Below, piece by piece: positions 5,931 through 13,379 of a stretch of DNA of 64,000 nt. The notes beneath the pieces are model-generated. The model saw nothing but the letters and a program-made list of their open reading frames with translations, was not told the origin of the DNA and made no database searches. A program made the translations under genes and the position numbers. Every line of letters starts with the position of its first letter. The first letter of the stretch is position 1. The DNA comes from Spongiibacter nanhainus. GTDB lineage: Bacteria; Pseudomonadota; Gammaproteobacteria; Pseudomonadales; Spongiibacteraceae. The stretch covers positions 3,160,001 through 3,224,000 of the forward strand of contig NZ_CP066167.1 of assembly GCF_016132545.1 (NCBI RefSeq). Reading direction: 5' to 3'.

Positions 5931-6043
5931 GACGTATGACCGGCTCATCAGCGGCGCCTGACACCAATACGGAATGGCAATTGCTAGGTAATATCAGTGA
6001 AGTACTTTGCCAATCAACGCTAAGACAAATAAAAGGTGTCGCA

Positions 6044-7534
6044 ATGAAGCAACTGAGCCACACGGATGCCATTTTCGTTTACAACGAAACCACCAACACC
6101 CCACTGCATATCAGCCCTATCCTTATCTATGACACCAGCAGCGCCGAAGGCGGCGTCAGATTTAAGGATATTCTTGCCCGCTTTGAAGAGCGCATCCACA
6201 AGTCTCCGGTGTTTCGCCAGAAGCTGGTCAAAGTGCCCTTCAATCTGGACAGCCCCTATTGGATCAACGACGAGAATTTTGACCTCGAGTTTCACGTCCG
6301 CCATCTGTCGCTGCCCAAACCCGGCGACTGGCGCCAGTTTTGTATTTTGCTGGCCCGACTCCACAGCCGCCCTCTGGACCTCAACCGGCCACCCTGGGAG
6401 GCCTATATCATCGAAGGCCTGGACAATATCACCGGCATGCCACCCGGTGCCTTTGCGATGTATATGAAAATCCACCACAGCGCCATCGACGGCGCCACTG
6501 GCAACCAGATGATTGAGGCCCTGCACGATCTTGAGCCCTACCCACAAACCCAACACACCCCGACACCCTGGCAGGGCGAGGCGCCGCCCAGCGACTTCAC
6601 CTTGCTGAAAAACGCTTATTTCAACGCACTCAAATCCCCGCGACAGGCCATGCGGGTAGCCAAGCACGCCTACCGCTCCCACAAGGAAGGTAAAAAAGGC
6701 TACAAGGGCAAAGCGTTTACCAACCATGAAGTCAAAGACCGTATTCGCTTCAATGAGGCAGTGACGCCACACCGAGTGTTCGGCGGCTTCCGCATGGACT
6801 TACAGGAGCTGAAGTACATTAAGAATACCGTAGCCGAGGGCACCCTGAACGACGTGCTGCTGAGCATTGTGGGGGGCGCCATGCGCCGCTATTTGGCAGA
6901 GAAAAGCGAACTCCCAGAAAACTCTCTGGTGGCCGGCGTCCCCATCAGTACTCGCGACGCTGACAACCACAACGCCGAAGGTGGCAACCAAGTGGCGGGC
7001 ATGCGTTTGCACCTGCGCACCGATATTGCCGACCCGGTAGAGCGCTTAAAGCTGATCCACCAAGACGCGGTATCCTCAAAAGCCTACGCCAATGCCATTG
7101 GCGTCGAGCGCATGGCAACGATTATTGACTCGATCCCCTCGGGGCTCGCCTCGGTCGGCATGCGAGTCGCGGCCGGTACCCATTTAGCGGCTCGCACTCC
7201 CATGCTGCATACCATTGTTACCAATGTGCCCGGCCCCCAGTTCCCCATGTATATGGCGGGAGCCCGGGCCGGTCTGTGGTTGGGTGCAGGCTGCCCGTTG
7301 GATGGCACCGGGCTGTTCCACACCATCAACAGTTACTACGGCAGTGTTTGCCTGGCCTTTATTTGCTGCCGGGAAATGATGCCGGACCCCGACTTCTACC
7401 ATCAGTGCATTACCGGCGCCTACCACGAGCTGCTGGAGGCCGCGCAAGCCATCGAAGCCAAAGCAGCCAACAGTCCGCGAGGAAAAGTGGAGGCCGCGCC
7501 AAAACCCAAAGCGCGCAAAGCCCGCTCTGCCTAA
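6044..7534 (+). CDS. Wax ester synthase / diacylglycerol acyltransferase (first copy)
   Basis: WS/DGAT enzymes join acyl-CoA to a fatty alcohol or diacylglycerol to make storage wax esters or triacylglycerol at the inner membrane. The catalytic HHxxxDG motif is present as HHSAIDG at residues 144-150. Other family landmarks are the N-terminal LSHTDAIFVYNET, the PLDLNRPPWEAYIIEG stretch and the later NVPGPQFPMYMAGA motif. The 496-residue length is typical. The ATG at 6044 is chosen for its AAAAGGTG five nt upstream; the open frame extends further 5' but lacks support. The C-terminus is Lys/Ala/Pro-rich. A second WS/DGAT lies at 36527. Confidence 0.93.
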   Translation: MKQLSHTDAIFVYNETTNTPLHISPILIYDTSSAEGGVRFKDILARFEERIHKSPVFRQKLVKVPFNLDSPYWINDENFDLEFHVRHLSLPKPGDWRQFCILLARLHSRPLDLNRPPWEAYIIEGLDNITGMPPGAFAMYMKIHHSAIDGATGNQMIEALHDLEPYPQTQHTPTPWQGEAPPSDFTLLKNAYFNALKSPRQAMRVAKHAYRSHKEGKKGYKGKAFTNHEVKDRIRFNEAVTPHRVFGGFRMDLQELKYIKNTVAEGTLNDVLLSIVGGAMRRYLAEKSELPENSLVAGVPISTRDADNHNAEGGNQVAGMRLHLRTDIADPVERLKLIHQDAVSSKAYANAIGVERMATIIDSIPSGLASVGMRVAAGTHLAARTPMLHTIVTNVPGPQFPMYMAGARAGLWLGAGCPLDGTGLFHTINSYYGSVCLAFICCREMMPDPDFYHQCITGAYHELLEAAQAIEAKAANSPRGKVEAAPKPKARKARSA

Positions 7535-7550
7535 CTCGCCCCTATCAAAC

Positions 7551-7570
7551 GCGCGCCTGCCCAGGCGCGC
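7551..7570. other. GC-rich hairpin after the first WS/DGAT gene
   Basis: GCGCGCCTG and CAGGCGCGC form a near-perfect stem with a tight loop, 16 nt after the stop codon. There is no T run, so it is either a weak or Rho-assisted terminator or a 3'-end stabiliser. Confidence 0.5.
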
Positions 7571-7720
7571 AGCCTCAGGCCCTGCGCCACATCGACAGCT
7601 CGCCACCTTGTTTACATCAAGGCGCCATTAGCCGTATTGTTTTGCAAAATAATTCACGGTTTGGCGGCCAGGCCCTTTTTTGCCAAGCTGCGCTGCCCGT
7701 TCAAGGCAAAGGCATACAAG

Positions 7721-8875
7721 ATGTCGATATTTCAGTTCTCCACCACCAGTTCCCTCGTCAGTGGTCCCGGCAGCATCGAAGAGCTCGCCGACATCTGCCG
7801 TCGACTGGGAATCACCCACCCGCTAGTCGTATGTGATCGAGGTGTTGTTGAGGCTGGCTTGCTGAGCAGCCTGGAAACGGTATTGGCCCAGCACGCCTTG
7901 CCTTATCAGCTGTTCAGCGACGTTATCGCCGACCCGCCCGAGACGGTTATCCAGGCTGGCCTGCAAACAGCTGTGGACGCCGAGGTCGACGGTGTTATCG
8001 GCTTTGGCGGCGGCAGCTCGCTGGATACTGCCAAGCTGGTTGCGCTGCTGGCTCGGTCTGGGGAGTCGCTGCCTACTATTTACGGTGTGGACCAAAGCCG
8101 GGGGCCCCGACTGCCCCTTATCCAGATTCCCACCACCGCAGGCACCGGGTCAGAAGTCACACCGGTGGCTATTGTCACTACCGGTGATAGCACCAAAGCC
8201 GGGGTAGTCTCACCGCAGCTGCTGCCCGACGCCGCCATACTGGACGGCGCCTTGACCACCAGCCTGCCCCCCTTCGTGACGGCCTGCACTGGGGTCGATG
8301 CGATGGTTCATGCCGTCGAGGCCTATACCAGCGTCATCAAAAAGAACCCCTACTCGGATATGTTGGCCGAGAAAGCACTGCTGCTAATGTCCCGCAACAT
8401 ACACCGGGTATTCACAGAGGGCGCGGACCTGGAGGCCCGTCAGGCCATGCTGCTGGGCGCTTGCCTGGCTGGACAGGCCTTTGCCAATGCGCCCGTGGGC
8501 GCGGTGCATGCCCTCGCCTATCCGCTGGGTGGTCACTATCATATCCCCCACGGACTCAGTAACTCCCTGGTCCTACCCCATGTGCTGCGGTTTAACATCG
8601 AGCAGGCGGCCCCGCTCTACGCCAGGCTTCTGGATATCGTCGCACCCGAGGCCACCGCCTCTTCAAGCACGGAAAAAGCAGAGCAGTTTGCTTGCTATTT
8701 CGAAGGGCTTATCGACGATTTATCTTTACCATCGACTCTGAGTGCGGCGGATGTGCCCGAGAAGGATTTAGCCATGCTTGCTAGCGAGGCCATGTTGCAG
8801 ACCCGCCTGCTGGTTAACAACCCCCGGCAAGTTCTGGAGACAGACGCCTTGTCGATATATCAACAGGCATACTAA
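7721..8875 (+). CDS. Iron-containing (group III) alcohol dehydrogenase
   Basis: The 384-residue protein belongs to the NAD(P)-dependent metal alcohol dehydrogenase family that interconverts alcohols and aldehydes or ketones. It has the nucleotide-binding GFGGGSSLDTAK motif near residue 93 and the signature PTTAGTGSEVTPVAI. The metal ligands are visible as GVDAMVHAVEAYTS (Asp and His) and the His-rich GGHYHIPHGLSN. I start at the ATG at 7721, with AAAGG nearby, rather than at an upstream in-frame ATG. Upstream at 7606-7622 lies the inverted repeat CCTTG-N7-CAAGG. The substrate is unknown. The neighbours suggest a role in a ketone/alcohol pathway. Confidence 0.9.
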   Translation: MSIFQFSTTSSLVSGPGSIEELADICRRLGITHPLVVCDRGVVEAGLLSSLETVLAQHALPYQLFSDVIADPPETVIQAGLQTAVDAEVDGVIGFGGGSSLDTAKLVALLARSGESLPTIYGVDQSRGPRLPLIQIPTTAGTGSEVTPVAIVTTGDSTKAGVVSPQLLPDAAILDGALTTSLPPFVTACTGVDAMVHAVEAYTSVIKKNPYSDMLAEKALLLMSRNIHRVFTEGADLEARQAMLLGACLAGQAFANAPVGAVHALAYPLGGHYHIPHGLSNSLVLPHVLRFNIEQAAPLYARLLDIVAPEATASSSTEKAEQFACYFEGLIDDLSLPSTLSAADVPEKDLAMLASEAMLQTRLLVNNPRQVLETDALSIYQQAY

Positions 8876-8910
8876 TTCCGCAAATCAGTACCTAAGGAAG
8901 GAATATCGCT

Positions 8911-9348
8911 GTGTCAGATTTGGCCTTAGCCCGAGACCACTATTATTGGTTTACCCCCATTACCACCCGCTGGATGGATAACGATATCTACGGGCACGTT
9001 AACAACGTCACCTACTACTCCTACTTTGATACGATCGCCAACCGGTTTTTGATAGAGCGTGGCGGCCTGGATATCCAGCATGCCGATGTTATTGGCTATG
9101 TTGTCAGTTCGCAGTGCAACTACCGCAGCGCCATCGCCTTCCCCCAGTCTATCGAGGGGGGCTTTCGAGTAAATAAAATTGGCAATTCATCGGTGGAATA
9201 CGGATTGGCTATTTTTGCGGAAGGAGAAGACCAGGCCAGTGCTCACGGCAGCTTTACTCATGTGTTTGTCGACCGAAACAGCGAGCGCCCGCAAGCGATT
9301 CCAGAGGCTTTGCGTGCAGCACTGGAAAGCGTGCTGGTGGTTGCTTAG
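8911..9348 (+). CDS. 4HBT-fold acyl-CoA thioesterase
   Basis: A 145-residue hot-dog fold thioesterase of the 4-hydroxybenzoyl-CoA type, predicted to hydrolyse acyl-CoA in the cytoplasm. The active-site segment TRWMDNDIYGHVNNVTYYSYFD (residues 18 onward) has the catalytic Asp and the His-Val-Asn motif. The GTG start is supported by AAGGAAGG nine nt upstream. It follows the alcohol dehydrogenase by 35 bp on the same strand, so the two are probably cotranscribed. It converges on the lipoyl-protein gene with only 24 bp between stops. Confidence 0.88.
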   Translation: MSDLALARDHYYWFTPITTRWMDNDIYGHVNNVTYYSYFDTIANRFLIERGGLDIQHADVIGYVVSSQCNYRSAIAFPQSIEGGFRVNKIGNSSVEYGLAIFAEGEDQASAHGSFTHVFVDRNSERPQAIPEALRAALESVLVVA

Positions 9349-9372: not shown

Positions 9373-9609
9373 CTACTCTGCCACAATCGTCGCCACAAGG
9401 TCGCCCCCTTTGACAACGTCATCAACCTGAACGCAGCGGCGAAGGATGCCCGCCGCCGGGGCTTCAATTTCAAACACCGCTTTCGCCACCATGATATCGG
9501 CCACCAGGTCGCCCGGAGCTACCCTATCGCCACTTTCAAAGTACCAGTTTGTCAGTGCACCCTCTGTAGTATCAGTCCATAAGTCCTCAGGAATTTTTAC
9601 TTCAATCAT
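9373..9609 (-). CDS. Free-standing lipoyl-domain protein
   Basis: This 78-residue protein is a single biotinyl/lipoyl-attachment domain with nothing attached. The modified lysine is Lys43 in DIMVAKAVFEIEAPAAG, matching the lipoyl beta-hairpin of E2 proteins. In 2-oxoacid dehydrogenase complexes this domain is fused to the E2 acyltransferase; here it stands alone after the two E1 genes on the same strand (13 bp from the E1-beta stop). It could act as a mobile acyl carrier for the E1 enzyme, with the acyltransferase and E3 supplied from elsewhere. The ATG at 9609 is chosen because it gives a compact domain (IEVKIPED) with GGAG upstream. Confidence 0.86.
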   Translation of the reverse strand: MIEVKIPEDLWTDTTEGALTNWYFESGDRVAPGDLVADIMVAKAVFEIEAPAAGILRRCVQVDDVVKGGDLVATIVAE

Positions 9610-9622
9610 GTGGTGCACTCCT

Positions 9623-10633
9623 TCACAGCATGCGACATGCCGCAGCATGGATTTTTTCGCTATTGGGCAGCGCGTACTGCTCCATGGGCGGCGTAAAAGG
9701 TATCGGGATATCGGGGTAGGCTACCCGCGCTGGCGAGGCGCGAAGGATTGAGACATCGCGCTCCACCACCGATGCGATCAGCTCACCGCTGACACCAAAG
9801 CTCTGATAGTCCTCATCCACCACCAGTAAGCGGCCGGTCTTTTGTACCGACGCAAACAATAGCTCGCGATCCAAGGGCACCAATGAACGCAGGTCCAATA
9901 CTTCGGCCGAGACCCCCTCCGCCTCCAATGTTTTGGCTGCCGCCAAGGCTTGATGGACACCAGGCCCCAACGCAGCAATAGTCAGGTGATCGCCCTCACG
10001 TACAATTTTCCCGCTACCCAGCGGCAGCGTGTAGGATTCTGTGGGGACATGAACGATAGAGCCGGGCTCAGTGCCGAGCCACCCCATACCTTGCAGGCCC
10101 TTGTGAAACATAAACACTACCGGGTTATTATCAGCGATAGCCGCGTTCATCAGCCCCTTGGCATCGTAAGCATTGGAGGGTGATACCACTTTCATTCCCG
10201 GTAGATGGGCAAAGGTGCCATACAAACACTGGCTGTGCTGCCCACCATCGCTGTAACCGCCCCCCACTGCGGTCATCAGTACCATTGGGCAAGGCTGAGC
10301 CCCGCCAGAAAAATAGGCATTCTTGGCGGCAAGGTTATAGATCGCGTCCATACACACACCAAAGAAGTCCACAAACATAAGCTCGGCGATGGGACGCATA
10401 CCCTGGGTAGCGGCGCCCACCGCCGCACCAATAAACGCGGTTTCCGATATTGGGGTATCGCGAATACGCTCTTCACCAAATTCTTCCAACAAACCCTGGG
10501 TAGTACCGAACACCCCACCCAGTTTGCCGATATCCTCCCCCATCACAAAAACCGTCGGGTCGGCACGCATGTTCTGGGCAATGGCTTCTGACATTGCTCT
10601 GGCAATAGTCAAACGGCGTTTCTTTTCAGTCAT
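9623..10633 (-). CDS. Thiamine-dependent dehydrogenase E1 component, beta subunit
   Basis: This is the beta half of an alpha2-beta2 E1 enzyme of the pyruvate/branched-chain/acetoin dehydrogenase class, which decarboxylates a 2-oxo compound with thiamine diphosphate and passes the acyl group to a lipoyl arm. It shows the typical FVMGEDIGKLGGVFGTTQGL, RIRDTPISETAFIGAAVGAA and AGVRP-like GMRPIAELMFVDF segments. The 336-residue length is standard. The ATG at 10633 lies 10 bp after the E1-alpha stop; upstream in-frame sequence overlaps E1-alpha and is not used. Substrate is not readable from sequence; acetoin-type or branched-chain-type are the candidates. Confidence 0.9.
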   Translation of the reverse strand: MTEKKRRLTIARAMSEAIAQNMRADPTVFVMGEDIGKLGGVFGTTQGLLEEFGEERIRDTPISETAFIGAAVGAATQGMRPIAELMFVDFFGVCMDAIYNLAAKNAYFSGGAQPCPMVLMTAVGGGYSDGGQHSQCLYGTFAHLPGMKVVSPSNAYDAKGLMNAAIADNNPVVFMFHKGLQGMGWLGTEPGSIVHVPTESYTLPLGSGKIVREGDHLTIAALGPGVHQALAAAKTLEAEGVSAEVLDLRSLVPLDRELLFASVQKTGRLLVVDEDYQSFGVSGELIASVVERDVSILRASPARVAYPDIPIPFTPPMEQYALPNSEKIHAAACRML

Positions 10634-10643
10634 GCTTTGGCTC

Positions 10644-11630
10644 CTACACGAACACGCAATCAAGGGCTTGAGCGGGTTGCGGAAAATCCGCCTCCCGGGC
10701 GAAATCGAAGGCAGAAGCCACCGTCGACCGAGCATCCTCCTCGAGAACCGACACGTCACCCTCGCTACAGACGCCGCTTTCCAACAAGTGTCGACGCATG
10801 GCTCGGATAGGGTCCCGGGCGATTGCCCCGGTTTTTTCGCCCTCGGGGCGATAAGCTTCAGCGTCCCCCATAAAGTGTCCTGCGAGCCGGCTGGTTTCGA
10901 TTTCAATCAAGGTTGGCCCCTCACCGCGCCGAGCGCGGGCTATGGCTTGCCCCGCGGTGGCAAAGACCGCCAAAGGATCGTTATCCGCCACGCGATAACC
11001 GGGGATGCCATACGCCTGGGCACGAACCTCGTTGCCCGGGACCGCCGTGGATGCTTGCTTGGCGACAGAAATCCCCCACTGGTTATCCTCAATCACACAG
11101 ATAAAGGGTAACTGCCATACTGCGGCCAGATTCATCACCTCGTGAAAGGCTCCCTGGTTACACGCCCCTTCGCCAATAAAGGCAACCGCCACTCGATCTT
11201 CGCCGCGCATTTTAAAACTCAGTGCCGCCCCGGCCGCCGGCGCCATGCCCTCGGCAATAATGCCGCTGCATACAAAATTCACCTGCGTGTCGAAGAGGTG
11301 CATATGGCCACCACGGCCCCCGGATAAACCTGAGGCCTTCCCGAAGATCTCTGCCGTCATACGGGGTAAATCCACCCCCTTGGCAATGGCGATATGATGG
11401 GGGCGGTGAGTCGCAGTCACTGCATCGTCTTTTCGCAGATGGGCGCACACTCCCACTGCACAGGGTTCCTGGCCATTAGACAGGTGCATCTCACCGGGTA
11501 TCGGCCCAGCTGCCATGTTAAAAACCGGTTGCTTGCCCTCTAGGTATGCTTTTTCGGTGGCTTCCTCAAAGTATCGGCTGGTAACCATTTTCAAATACAT
11601 CCAGCGTTGCTGTTCACTGGTCGCTTGCAT
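10644..11630 (-). CDS. Thiamine-dependent dehydrogenase E1 component, alpha subunit
   Basis: The 328-residue protein is the thiamine-diphosphate-binding half of the E1 enzyme. The binding motif runs from GEGACNQG to about 30 residues on at EDNQWGIS, and GGRGGHMHLFD is the family segment that lines the cofactor site. I chose the ATG at 11630, with GAGAGG eight nt upstream, over an ATG nine codons earlier that has no Shine-Dalgarno. It heads a three-gene run E1-alpha, E1-beta, lipoyl protein with gaps of about 10 bp. Acetoin dehydrogenase AcoA is the closest-feeling family. No E2 or E3 gene follows. Confidence 0.9.
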   Translation of the reverse strand: MQATSEQQRWMYLKMVTSRYFEEATEKAYLEGKQPVFNMAAGPIPGEMHLSNGQEPCAVGVCAHLRKDDAVTATHRPHHIAIAKGVDLPRMTAEIFGKASGLSGGRGGHMHLFDTQVNFVCSGIIAEGMAPAAGAALSFKMRGEDRVAVAFIGEGACNQGAFHEVMNLAAVWQLPFICVIEDNQWGISVAKQASTAVPGNEVRAQAYGIPGYRVADNDPLAVFATAGQAIARARRGEGPTLIEIETSRLAGHFMGDAEAYRPEGEKTGAIARDPIRAMRRHLLESGVCSEGDVSVLEEDARSTVASAFDFAREADFPQPAQALDCVFV

Positions 11631-11686
11631 GGCATATCCTCTCGATAACAGCGTCATAAAACTAAAAAGCTAAGCGGCAACTATCG

Positions 11687-12082
11687 TTAAACCGCATCAG
11701 CTAAATCACACAACAGAGCGTAATCGAGAAGCTGCTTGATGCCGCCCTCATCATCGAGAAAGGCCACGGGACCATGATTGGTAAACAGCAACTCTGTGTA
11801 TTCGGGAAACAGCGTTTTCTCATGGATTGCGCCCAGCGGTTCGTAGCCATAACATCCGGCTACAGCCTCACCGGCAACGTATTGCATACGCCCGGTGATC
11901 ACGTAGTATTCCCCGGCCCCATGATGCTTGTGGATAGGGAAAAAACTCCCTGGCTGGCAGCGAAACAACACTGTCCACACACCGGATTCCTGACTGACTC
12001 TCAATAGCTTGAAGTCGATACCGTCAATTATTGGAATCCACTTCAAGGTACTGGCGTCTTTTAGAATTTCGCTAGCTTCCAT
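11687..12082 (-). CDS. Dke1-like cupin dioxygenase
   Basis: A 131-residue single-domain cupin resembling acetylacetone-cleaving dioxygenase (Dke1) and the 2,4'-dihydroxyacetophenone dioxygenase/ChrR-type cupins. The three-histidine iron site of Dke1 (spaced H-x-H and a later H) is matched by His51, His53 and His87, in HKHHGAGEYYVITGRM and GAIHEKT. Dke1 splits a beta-diketone with O2 into a carboxylate and a 2-oxoaldehyde. Here the gene lies 56 bp upstream of E1-alpha on the same strand, so it probably leads the operon. The substrate is inferred only. The ATG at 12082 is preferred over a start 14 codons earlier. Confidence 0.8.
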   Translation of the reverse strand: MEASEILKDASTLKWIPIIDGIDFKLLRVSQESGVWTVLFRCQPGSFFPIHKHHGAGEYYVITGRMQYVAGEAVAGCYGYEPLGAIHEKTLFPEYTELLFTNHGPVAFLDDEGGIKQLLDYALLCDLADAV

Positions 12083-12383: not shown

Positions 12384-13379
12384 ATGATGCAAGCCACCTC
12401 AGCCACCGGCACTGCCGTACACTGGAACACTGACGACCTTCCCCTTGCCGACAAATTTGATGCCTGGCGGGATATGCTGTGCCAGTCACATCTGCCCTGG
12501 TCGGTGGATCGTCCCACCACCGATAAGACCTTCAACGCCAACATCCAGATGCATAGCTTTAACGGTTACCGGCTGATTAAATGTATATGTGACCCGCTGG
12601 TGGGATATCGAGGTATGCAGGAATTTGCAAACACCGATGACGCCTACCTGAGTGTCTTGTATATCAAGCGGGGAAGAGAAAACCTTCGCATCGACTATCA
12701 GGACATCGAACTACAGGCTGGCCAGCTTATTCTCTGGGACAGTACCCGCAAAATGCACTTCAATGTTCCCGAGCGCCTGGAAAAAGTGACACTGATGTTG
12801 CCCGAACGCAGTCTAACCAGTGTGTTTGCCCATGCCCACGACTATGCTGGCATCCCGCTTTCGGCCACTACTGGCATGGGCGCGGTCTTTGCCAACCACC
12901 TACTTCAGCTTGAACAGCAAATGCCGAAAATTGGTGCAGAGACTGGCACCGCGCTAATGCGGCCCACCATGGACATGCTCGCCGCTCTGCTCTCCAGCAA
13001 AACCTCGCTATCCCCAGCCACCCTCAAGTTCGTCATGCTAAGGCGGATTAAACAGTTCATCGTTCACAACCTGGGCAACGAGCAGCTCGGCCCGGCCATG
13101 ATTGCCGAAGCGCACCAGATATCACTGCGCTATCTTCACTTGCTCTTTGAAGACGTAGGCACCAGCGTCTCCCAGTGGATTCGCCAGCGTCGCCTGGAGC
13201 GCAGTAAGGACGATATTCTCAGCGCCGGTATCAGCAAGCTGTCCATCGCTGAAGTTGCCTATCGCTGGGGGTTCAGTGACCCCAGTCATTTCAGCAAGGT
13301 GTTTAAGAGGGAATACGGCGTTTCGCCTAGGGGAATGTTGAATGCCCAGCGCCTTCATAGTGGCGAAGCGCTGCAATAA
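12384..13379 (+). CDS. AraC-family transcriptional regulator
   Basis: The 331-residue protein has an N-terminal ligand/dimerisation domain of the AraC_binding_2 type (about residues 20-200) and a C-terminal double helix-turn-helix, with ISKLSIAEVAYRWGFSDPSHFSKVFKREYGVSP as the conserved second half. This domain pairing is common in activators of aromatic or alkane catabolic operons. It is divergent from the cupin/E1 genes, which makes it their probable regulator. GAGGG lies eight nt before tandem ATG codons. Its 3' end overlaps the convergent TetR-type gene by 53 bp. Confidence 0.9.
   Translation: MMQATSATGTAVHWNTDDLPLADKFDAWRDMLCQSHLPWSVDRPTTDKTFNANIQMHSFNGYRLIKCICDPLVGYRGMQEFANTDDAYLSVLYIKRGRENLRIDYQDIELQAGQLILWDSTRKMHFNVPERLEKVTLMLPERSLTSVFAHAHDYAGIPLSATTGMGAVFANHLLQLEQQMPKIGAETGTALMRPTMDMLAALLSSKTSLSPATLKFVMLRRIKQFIVHNLGNEQLGPAMIAEAHQISLRYLHLLFEDVGTSVSQWIRQRRLERSKDDILSAGISKLSIAEVAYRWGFSDPSHFSKVFKREYGVSPRGMLNAQRLHSGEALQ

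Follow-up and report, generated by a model that had tools for sequence, protein, structure and literature searches.

A Dke1-like cupin encoded with E1 subunits and a free lipoyl carrier in Spongiibacter nanhainus and sphingomonads: a putative ketone-cleaving module

Acetoin dehydrogenase is a complex of AcoA, AcoB and AcoC, and lipoyl carriers are usually viewed as arms of E2 or as the H protein of glycine cleavage. The acetylacetone dioxygenase Dke1 has been described in two papers (PMC4019311, PMC7226712; both available in part), the first of which, in its available sections, assigns roles to the hydrophilic residues Tyr70, Arg80, Glu98 and Thr107. The available part of a further report describes LbpA, a stand-alone lipoate-binding protein that has its own ligase and takes part in Hdr-like sulfur oxidation (PMC6067878). 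Here we analyze a 64,000-nucleotide stretch of the Spongiibacter nanhainus genome (NZ_CP066167.1, positions 3,160,001 to 3,224,000; defined as “the window”), which lies within one 4.08 Mb contig and encodes a Dke1-like cupin together with two E1 subunits and a lone lipoyl domain. On balance, we lean toward reading the four genes as a catabolic module for the aerobic breakage of a C-C bond in a ketone, in which the cupin would cleave the substrate and E1 would load an acyl group onto a free carrier, itself one half of a split E2. The module is best read as AraC-controlled and, in the counterparts defined below as type A, as TonB-fed. The genes are as follows, in window coordinates:

11687..12082, minus strand, Dke1-like cupin (Cupin_7) of 131 amino acids with a predicted three-histidine site, His51/His53/His87 (Pfam and alignment with Dke1)
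10644..11630, minus strand, E1-alpha of 328 amino acids, presumably of the acetoin-dehydrogenase type as judged by the operons of its relatives, with the thiamine diphosphate (ThDP) motif GEG...EDN
9623..10633, minus strand, E1-beta of 336 amino acids, with the SET and GQHSQ motifs common to its relatives
9373..9609, minus strand, stand-alone lipoyl domain of 78 amino acids, with Lys43
12384..13379, plus strand, divergent AraC-family regulator (AraC_binding_2 and HTH_18, by Pfam)

The four genes of the set share the minus strand in the order cupin, E1-alpha, E1-beta and lipoyl, with gaps of 56, 10 and 13 bp, which confirms the coordinates and families proposed in an initial annotation of the window. 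An alternative ATG start at 11657 would lengthen E1-alpha to 337 amino acids. The Pfam scores are 134 bits for Cupin_7, 222 for E1_dh, 139 for Transket_pyr, 112 for Transketolase_C and 42 for Biotin_lipoyl, and no NCBIfam model scored above its cut-off for any of the four proteins. The E1-alpha and E1-beta pair has the ThDP motif and the conserved histidines of 2-oxo acid and acetoin dehydrogenases. As no E2 or E3 is encoded with the E1, the set does not qualify as a complete 2-oxo acid dehydrogenase complex. The lipoyl protein has the 78 residues first attributed to it and no catalytic domain. Its Lys43, which had been proposed as modifiable, aligns with the lipoyl lysine of E2 and is a lysine in all 29 aligned rows; it is the putative lipoylation site.

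The set recurs in sphingomonads. Seven of the 31 plasmid records matched by the cupin were opened, and four of these have the order cupin-M24-E1-alpha-E1-beta-lipoyl. This order was read from the record annotation for the plasmids of Croceicoccus marinus and Sphingobium sp. RAC03, and from gene calls plus tblastn for those of Novosphingobium resinovorum and Novosphingobium sp. PP1Y; the other three records (L183, L185 and L186) are without E1 and lipoyl genes. We then used a cupin of this M24-containing form (type B, below) as the query against 397 genomes from the family to which Sphingomonas sp. Y57 belongs, at a threshold of E ≤ 1e-15 below which weaker cupins were not counted, and obtained 27 places in 23 genomes. 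E1-alpha, E1-beta and the lipoyl gene lie within 10 kb of the cupin in 24 of the 27 places, the exceptions being G491 and two places on one 7-kb contig of G728. The recurrence indicates more than a chance arrangement and supports the functional link between the cupin, the E1 and the lone lipoyl protein that the initial annotation had assumed; lack of conservation, which that annotation had named as grounds for refutation, is not what we find.

Relatives closer to the window genome were also sought. A first scan of genome contigs with the window cupin alone returned 29 stretches and confirmed no close relative among them. For the more distant cupins of related genomes, 29 loci were fetched, and at none of them does an E1 match fall within 1.5 kb. 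E1-alpha at ≥53% identity was found in only three of 369 sampled genomes of the class, the genome itself apart, and none of 17 genomes of the same genus has an E1-alpha match at E ≤ 1e-60. Given this absence from the genus, the four-gene set was probably acquired. We found no description of the gene set in the open-access literature, outside which most subscription journals lie, and this is no proof of its absence from print.

Two main forms of the cluster were distinguished. Type A, the counterpart of the window set, occurs in nine of the 397 genomes, with 53–62% identity to the window proteins for the cupin, 62–68% for E1-alpha, 64–70% for E1-beta and 34–43% for the lipoyl protein. In type A, genes for a TonB receptor and the cupin run one way, and those for an AraC regulator, a short-chain dehydrogenase/reductase, E1-alpha, E1-beta, the lipoyl protein and a lipoate-ligase-like (LplA/B-type) protein run the opposite way. 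Matches to all eight gene kinds were found in all nine clusters by tblastn, the Pfam names having been checked on L237 only. The AraC match is thus present in every type A cluster, and it was also found at L118 of Sphingomonas sp. Y57 (AraC domains Pfam-checked in L237 and L118 only); the regulator at 12384-13379 probably controls the four-gene set. Type B occurs in 14 genomes and four plasmid records, with one organism apparently in both; its E1-alpha is only 36–43% identical to that of the window, and an M24 gene lies between the cupin and E1. The 19 type B loci represent 17 distinct ones, as L229 and L246 are from the same genome and L182 and L228 apparently from the same plasmid. Both forms are carried by two genomes, and Sphingomonas sp. 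Y57 has, besides type B, a third arrangement in the order E1-alpha, E1-beta, lipoyl, cupin and AraC. In the cupin tree the window protein falls among the type A cupins (support 68–83).

The cupin is Dke1-like by its sequence and predicted fold. In a structural alignment it shares 36% identity with Dke1 of Acinetobacter johnsonii (PDB 3bal), and His51, His53 and His87 align with the ligands His62, His64 and His104 of Dke1. The three-histidine site of acetylacetone dioxygenase, recognized from the window sequence at the outset, is therefore retained in the alignment, and iron ligation is predicted. Of the four hydrophilic residues of Dke1, the tyrosine, glutamate and threonine (Tyr70, Glu98 and Thr107) are kept, and Arg80 is lost from the window copy. 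The cupin fold and three-histidine iron site are also common to 2,4'-dihydroxyacetophenone dioxygenase (DAD; PDB 4p9g), according to the available part of its description (PMC4219425), and several plasmid relatives of the cupin bear the DAD family name in their records. From the fold and these residues, we infer that the cupin is probably a dioxygenase with Fe(II) bound by three histidines, which would cut its substrate adjacent to the carbonyl.

The E1 was compared with its relatives, defined as the best 80 of at least 578 E1-alpha matches (query, an alignment of five E1-alpha proteins; named genomes). Across these 80 loci, from Marinobacterium, Halomonas, Stutzerimonas, Ruegeria, sphingomonads and others, E1-alpha is 62–75% and E1-beta 67–78% identical. 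E1-beta was found in 79 loci, a lipoyl match in 77, an E2 catalytic match in 67, E3 in six and a cupin in one. In 62 of the 67 E2-bearing loci, the gene calls place the small lipoyl protein and the E2 catalytic protein in genes of their own; the caller did not resolve the other five. An LplA/B-type match was present in 62 of the 67. The same lipoyl/E2 split is found in the NCBI annotation of a Sphingomonas paeninsulae plasmid. A typical operon, in Stutzerimonas kunmingensis (L138, 4511-13896), encodes a sigma-54 activator, a gluconate-2-dehydrogenase-subunit-3-like protein, a GMC oxidoreductase, E1-alpha, a zinc alcohol dehydrogenase, E1-beta, a lipoyl protein (80 residues), an E2 catalytic protein (233 residues) and an LplA/B-type protein. 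The acetoin-dehydrogenase-type label that we use for the E1 is taken from such operon make-up and from the known aco operons. The split-E2 operon is widespread among the E1 relatives, often with the GMC oxidoreductase and the gluconate-2-dehydrogenase-subunit-3-like protein.

Because the E2 of these relatives is split into two genes, a lone lipoyl gene adjoining E1-beta is usual in this E1 family. The initial annotation, which missed this, had called the lipoyl protein an orphan. The window set stands out by lacking the E2 half and by having a cupin in addition. Four of the relatives (L137, L151, L154 and L161, from Halomonas faecis, two Salipiger and Frigidibacter) also keep E1, the lipoyl gene and the LplA/B-type gene, and the stretches fetched for them show no gene for the E2 catalytic part.

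We searched for the E2 and E3 that could serve the carrier. In the window genome, PF00198 matches at four places, none of them in the window. Two are full-length E2 genes with lipoyl domains and two encode stand-alone catalytic proteins elsewhere in the genome. A single E3 match exceeds the cut-off, at 1.84 Mb. The early claim of “no E2 or E3” thus holds near the set and not for the genome as a whole. An E2 catalytic profile built from 68 catalytic sequences had no match in the nine type A loci, in the cupin-only locus L245, in the 19 type B loci or in 14 other loci, one of which is the window from its start to 30 kb. The loci that did match, 65 of 65, had served to build this profile and matched by construction; as an independent check, it matched all 38 places fetched via PF00198. 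For E3, tblastn gave no match in clusters of either type, A or B.

In the nine type A genomes, every PF00198 place was retrieved and its reading frame examined for a lipoyl domain. Of the 36 intact E2 genes, 34 have their own lipoyl domain; two E2 fragments of G823 (L285 and L286) are outside this count. All 25 E2 genes of seven genomes are lipoyl-bearing and no stand-alone E2 was found in them, while G579 and G823 each have one stand-alone E2 beside a separate lipoyl frame. A missed E2 gene is unlikely in G549 and G703, because each is nearly one contig. The length of the open frame was dropped as a test for stand-alone E2, as that of G579 sits in a 485-residue open frame. The census fits the view, taken up from the initial annotation, that the carrier is dedicated and its acyltransferase either borrowed or lacking.

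Three further sets of E1 with a lone lipoyl gene, overlooked by the initial annotation, were identified in the window genome near P450 or Rieske oxygenases. The set at L062:9150-12783 (G000:C1, about 3749149-3752782) has the closest E1 paralogue, with E1-alpha, E1-beta and lipoyl proteins 55, 59 and 43% identical to those of the window. A Rieske oxygenase lies upstream of it, genes for a TonB receptor, an AMP ligase and an AraC regulator are nearby, and no E2 was found in the fetched stretch. The other two sets (L060:8229-15077 and L061:2375-13338) belong to another E1 subgroup. Neighbors of one are genes for a P450-like protein, a Rieske oxygenase and an aldehyde dehydrogenase; those of the other are genes for a P450-like protein, SCP2, an acyl-CoA dehydrogenase and an E2 catalytic protein that stands alone. 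The second of these clusters gives the impression of a steroid- or terpenoid-type catabolic cluster. The variation of the oxygenase beside the E1-lipoyl pair suggests that this pair handles carbonyl fragments made by the oxygenase.

In combination, these results point to the following route. The cupin would use O2 to cleave a ketone C-C bond next to the carbonyl. The ThDP-dependent E1-alpha/E1-beta pair, to judge by its family, would split an acyloin or 2-oxo fragment and transfer the acyl group to the free lipoyl carrier at Lys43. The carrier would correspond to one half of a split E2, as most of the close E1 relatives encode the lipoyl and acyltransferase parts separately. In the window genome, the acyl group would most likely be taken by one of the two stand-alone E2s encoded elsewhere, and the carrier may be re-oxidized by a general, shared E3. 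As no stand-alone E2 was found in seven of the nine type A genomes, the acyl group there would pass to a housekeeping E2 in trans or leave as the free acid. A propionate/acetate-coenzyme A (CoA)-ligase-like enzyme encoded in four of the nine counterparts could activate a short acid and would suit a free-acid product.

Several observations weigh against this route. The activities and the lipoylation ascribed to members of the set are predictions, the ketone is a putative substrate, and the cupin model was built from two sequences, with predicted local distance difference test (pLDDT) values from 83 to 53 over five models. Arg80 of the Dke1 gate is a valine in the window cupin, where all nine type A copies and L118 have arginine. 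The positions of Phe115 and Phe119 of Dke1, which we take to be pocket phenylalanines, are leucine and asparagine in the window and type A cupins. Both phenylalanines occur in L185, annotated as acetylacetone-cleaving, and in L186, and the fetched stretches around these two cupins have no E1/lipoyl link. Given the change of Arg80 to valine in the window copy and the different residues at the phenylalanine positions, acetylacetone itself is unlikely as the substrate. The beta-diketone of the initial proposal is no more than a candidate. The E1-alpha of the cupin-bearing locus L118 (9001-10002) has GEA in its ThDP motif rather than GEG or GDG. In the E1 tree, the window protein is near those of type A, L118, L086 and L099 with weak support (46/48). 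The stand-alone E2s of the window genome sit with a different E1 subgroup and are only candidates for service to this carrier. In type A, the cupin and the E1 are in divergent operons and not in one. The CoA-ligase-like gene after the cupin gives a strong match (≥62% to the L237 copy) in four of the nine type A clusters, L237 as the query included, a weak match in three others and none in two, and was not seen beside the window set. The window set also has no lipoate-ligase-like neighbor, and its genome has one LplA/LipB-type match and one PF03099 match.

A first E1 tree had placed the window E1 as sister of that of Sphingomonas sp. Y57 (0.84), and this grouping dissolved once the type A sequences were added (46/48). 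Excluded from the first tree were L095 (a duplicate of the L086 locus), L059, L089, L090 and any locus lacking one or both E1 genes, and the second is a chosen subset of 51 rows.

Two other explanations bear on the fate of the acyl group. One of them, which we regard as possible and hold only tentatively, is that E1 loads the lipoyl protein and that no E2 ever passes the acyl group to CoA. The group would instead be hydrolyzed or given to another acceptor, a CoA ligase would re-activate the acid, and the carrier would be mainly an electron and acyl relay. The absence of E2 from the cupin-E1-lipoyl clusters is consistent with this, as are the ligase-like gene after the cupin in four clusters and the Halomonas faecis, Salipiger and Frigidibacter loci. 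Moreover, three of the seven type A genomes in which every E2 gene found is lipoyl-bearing have just three E2 genes, within the range of two to three in ten control genomes (G461-G470). However, the cores of housekeeping E2s could act on the carrier in trans, stand-alone E2 is present in two type A genomes and in the window genome, and no conserved acceptor or thioesterase was seen in the clusters. The count of seven in nine also presumes that the type A assemblies are complete. Equally tentative is the extension to a class of E2-free ThDP-lipoyl modules, in which an oxygenase (the Dke1-like cupin, or the Rieske oxygenase of the paralogous set) would prepare the substrate and a free carrier would deliver the acyl group without a dedicated, and possibly without any, CoA acyltransferase.

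The second explanation, which we hold just as tentatively, is a split acetoin-dehydrogenase complex of the ordinary kind, with E2 and E3 borrowed from other loci and the cupin as a separate enzyme of the same pathway that does not feed E1 directly. The operons of most E1 relatives include a sigma-54 activator and keep the lipoyl and E2 genes apart, many of them also having a zinc alcohol dehydrogenase gene, and the window genome has both the two stand-alone E2 catalytic proteins and the general E3 from which to borrow. The oxygenase also differs between clusters, being of the Rieske type in L062 and, by tblastn, in L093 and L097, and a cupin in the window set. On the other hand, the seven type A genomes have no stand-alone E2 to borrow, and the pairing of one cupin family with two E1 lineages argues for a closer functional tie. 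A third possibility, that the cupin is a metal-binding sensor or isomerase-like protein in a loosely assembled, horizontally moved catabolic island, would agree with the naming of Cupin_7 for the ChrR cupin, a ChrR chain among the weaker matches, the loss of Arg80 in the window copy and the probable acquisition of the set, and is improbable.

Next to the set, on the plus strand at window positions 5936-9348 and convergent with it, are genes in a row for a wax ester synthase-like protein, an iron alcohol dehydrogenase and a 4HBT thioesterase. None of four nearby genes tried as set members (iron alcohol dehydrogenase, thioesterase, wax ester synthase and P450) has a tblastn match in the type A or type B clusters. 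The idea that the alcohol dehydrogenase and the thioesterase handle the products is thus not upheld, as both are on the opposite strand and have no match in these clusters or at L118. Overall, what the initial annotation observed is confirmed, and its interpretation is partly supported.

For the module as we prefer to read it, the conserved set keeps E1 and a free carrier without E2, and so provides a defined system for asking where an acyl group made by E1 goes. It also points to a ketone pathway, uncharacterized and probably dependent on oxygen, both in sphingomonads and in the gammaproteobacterium from which the window comes.

Compared with known systems, the window cupin differs from Dke1 in being linked to E1 and a lipoyl carrier. 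The set has E1-alpha, E1-beta and the lipoyl gene in common with acetoin dehydrogenase and the split-E2 relatives of Stutzerimonas, Halomonas, Marinobacterium and Ruegeria. In contrast to them, it has no E2 catalytic gene and no adjoining lipoate-ligase-like gene, has AraC instead of a sigma-54 activator, and has the cupin added. The nearest precedent that we have seen outside E2 complexes is LbpA which, in the available part of its description, is likewise a small free lipoyl protein without E2 (PMC6067878). LbpA has its own ligase, and the sphingomonad type A clusters have a ligase-like gene. The partner of LbpA is an Hdr-like complex, whereas that of the window carrier would be a ThDP-dependent E1, and no sulfur-oxidation (hdr-like) gene was found among six window neighbors scanned with NCBIfam and Pfam. 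By analogy, the system resembles Dke1-type ketone cleavage paired with a split E1 of the acetoin-dehydrogenase type.

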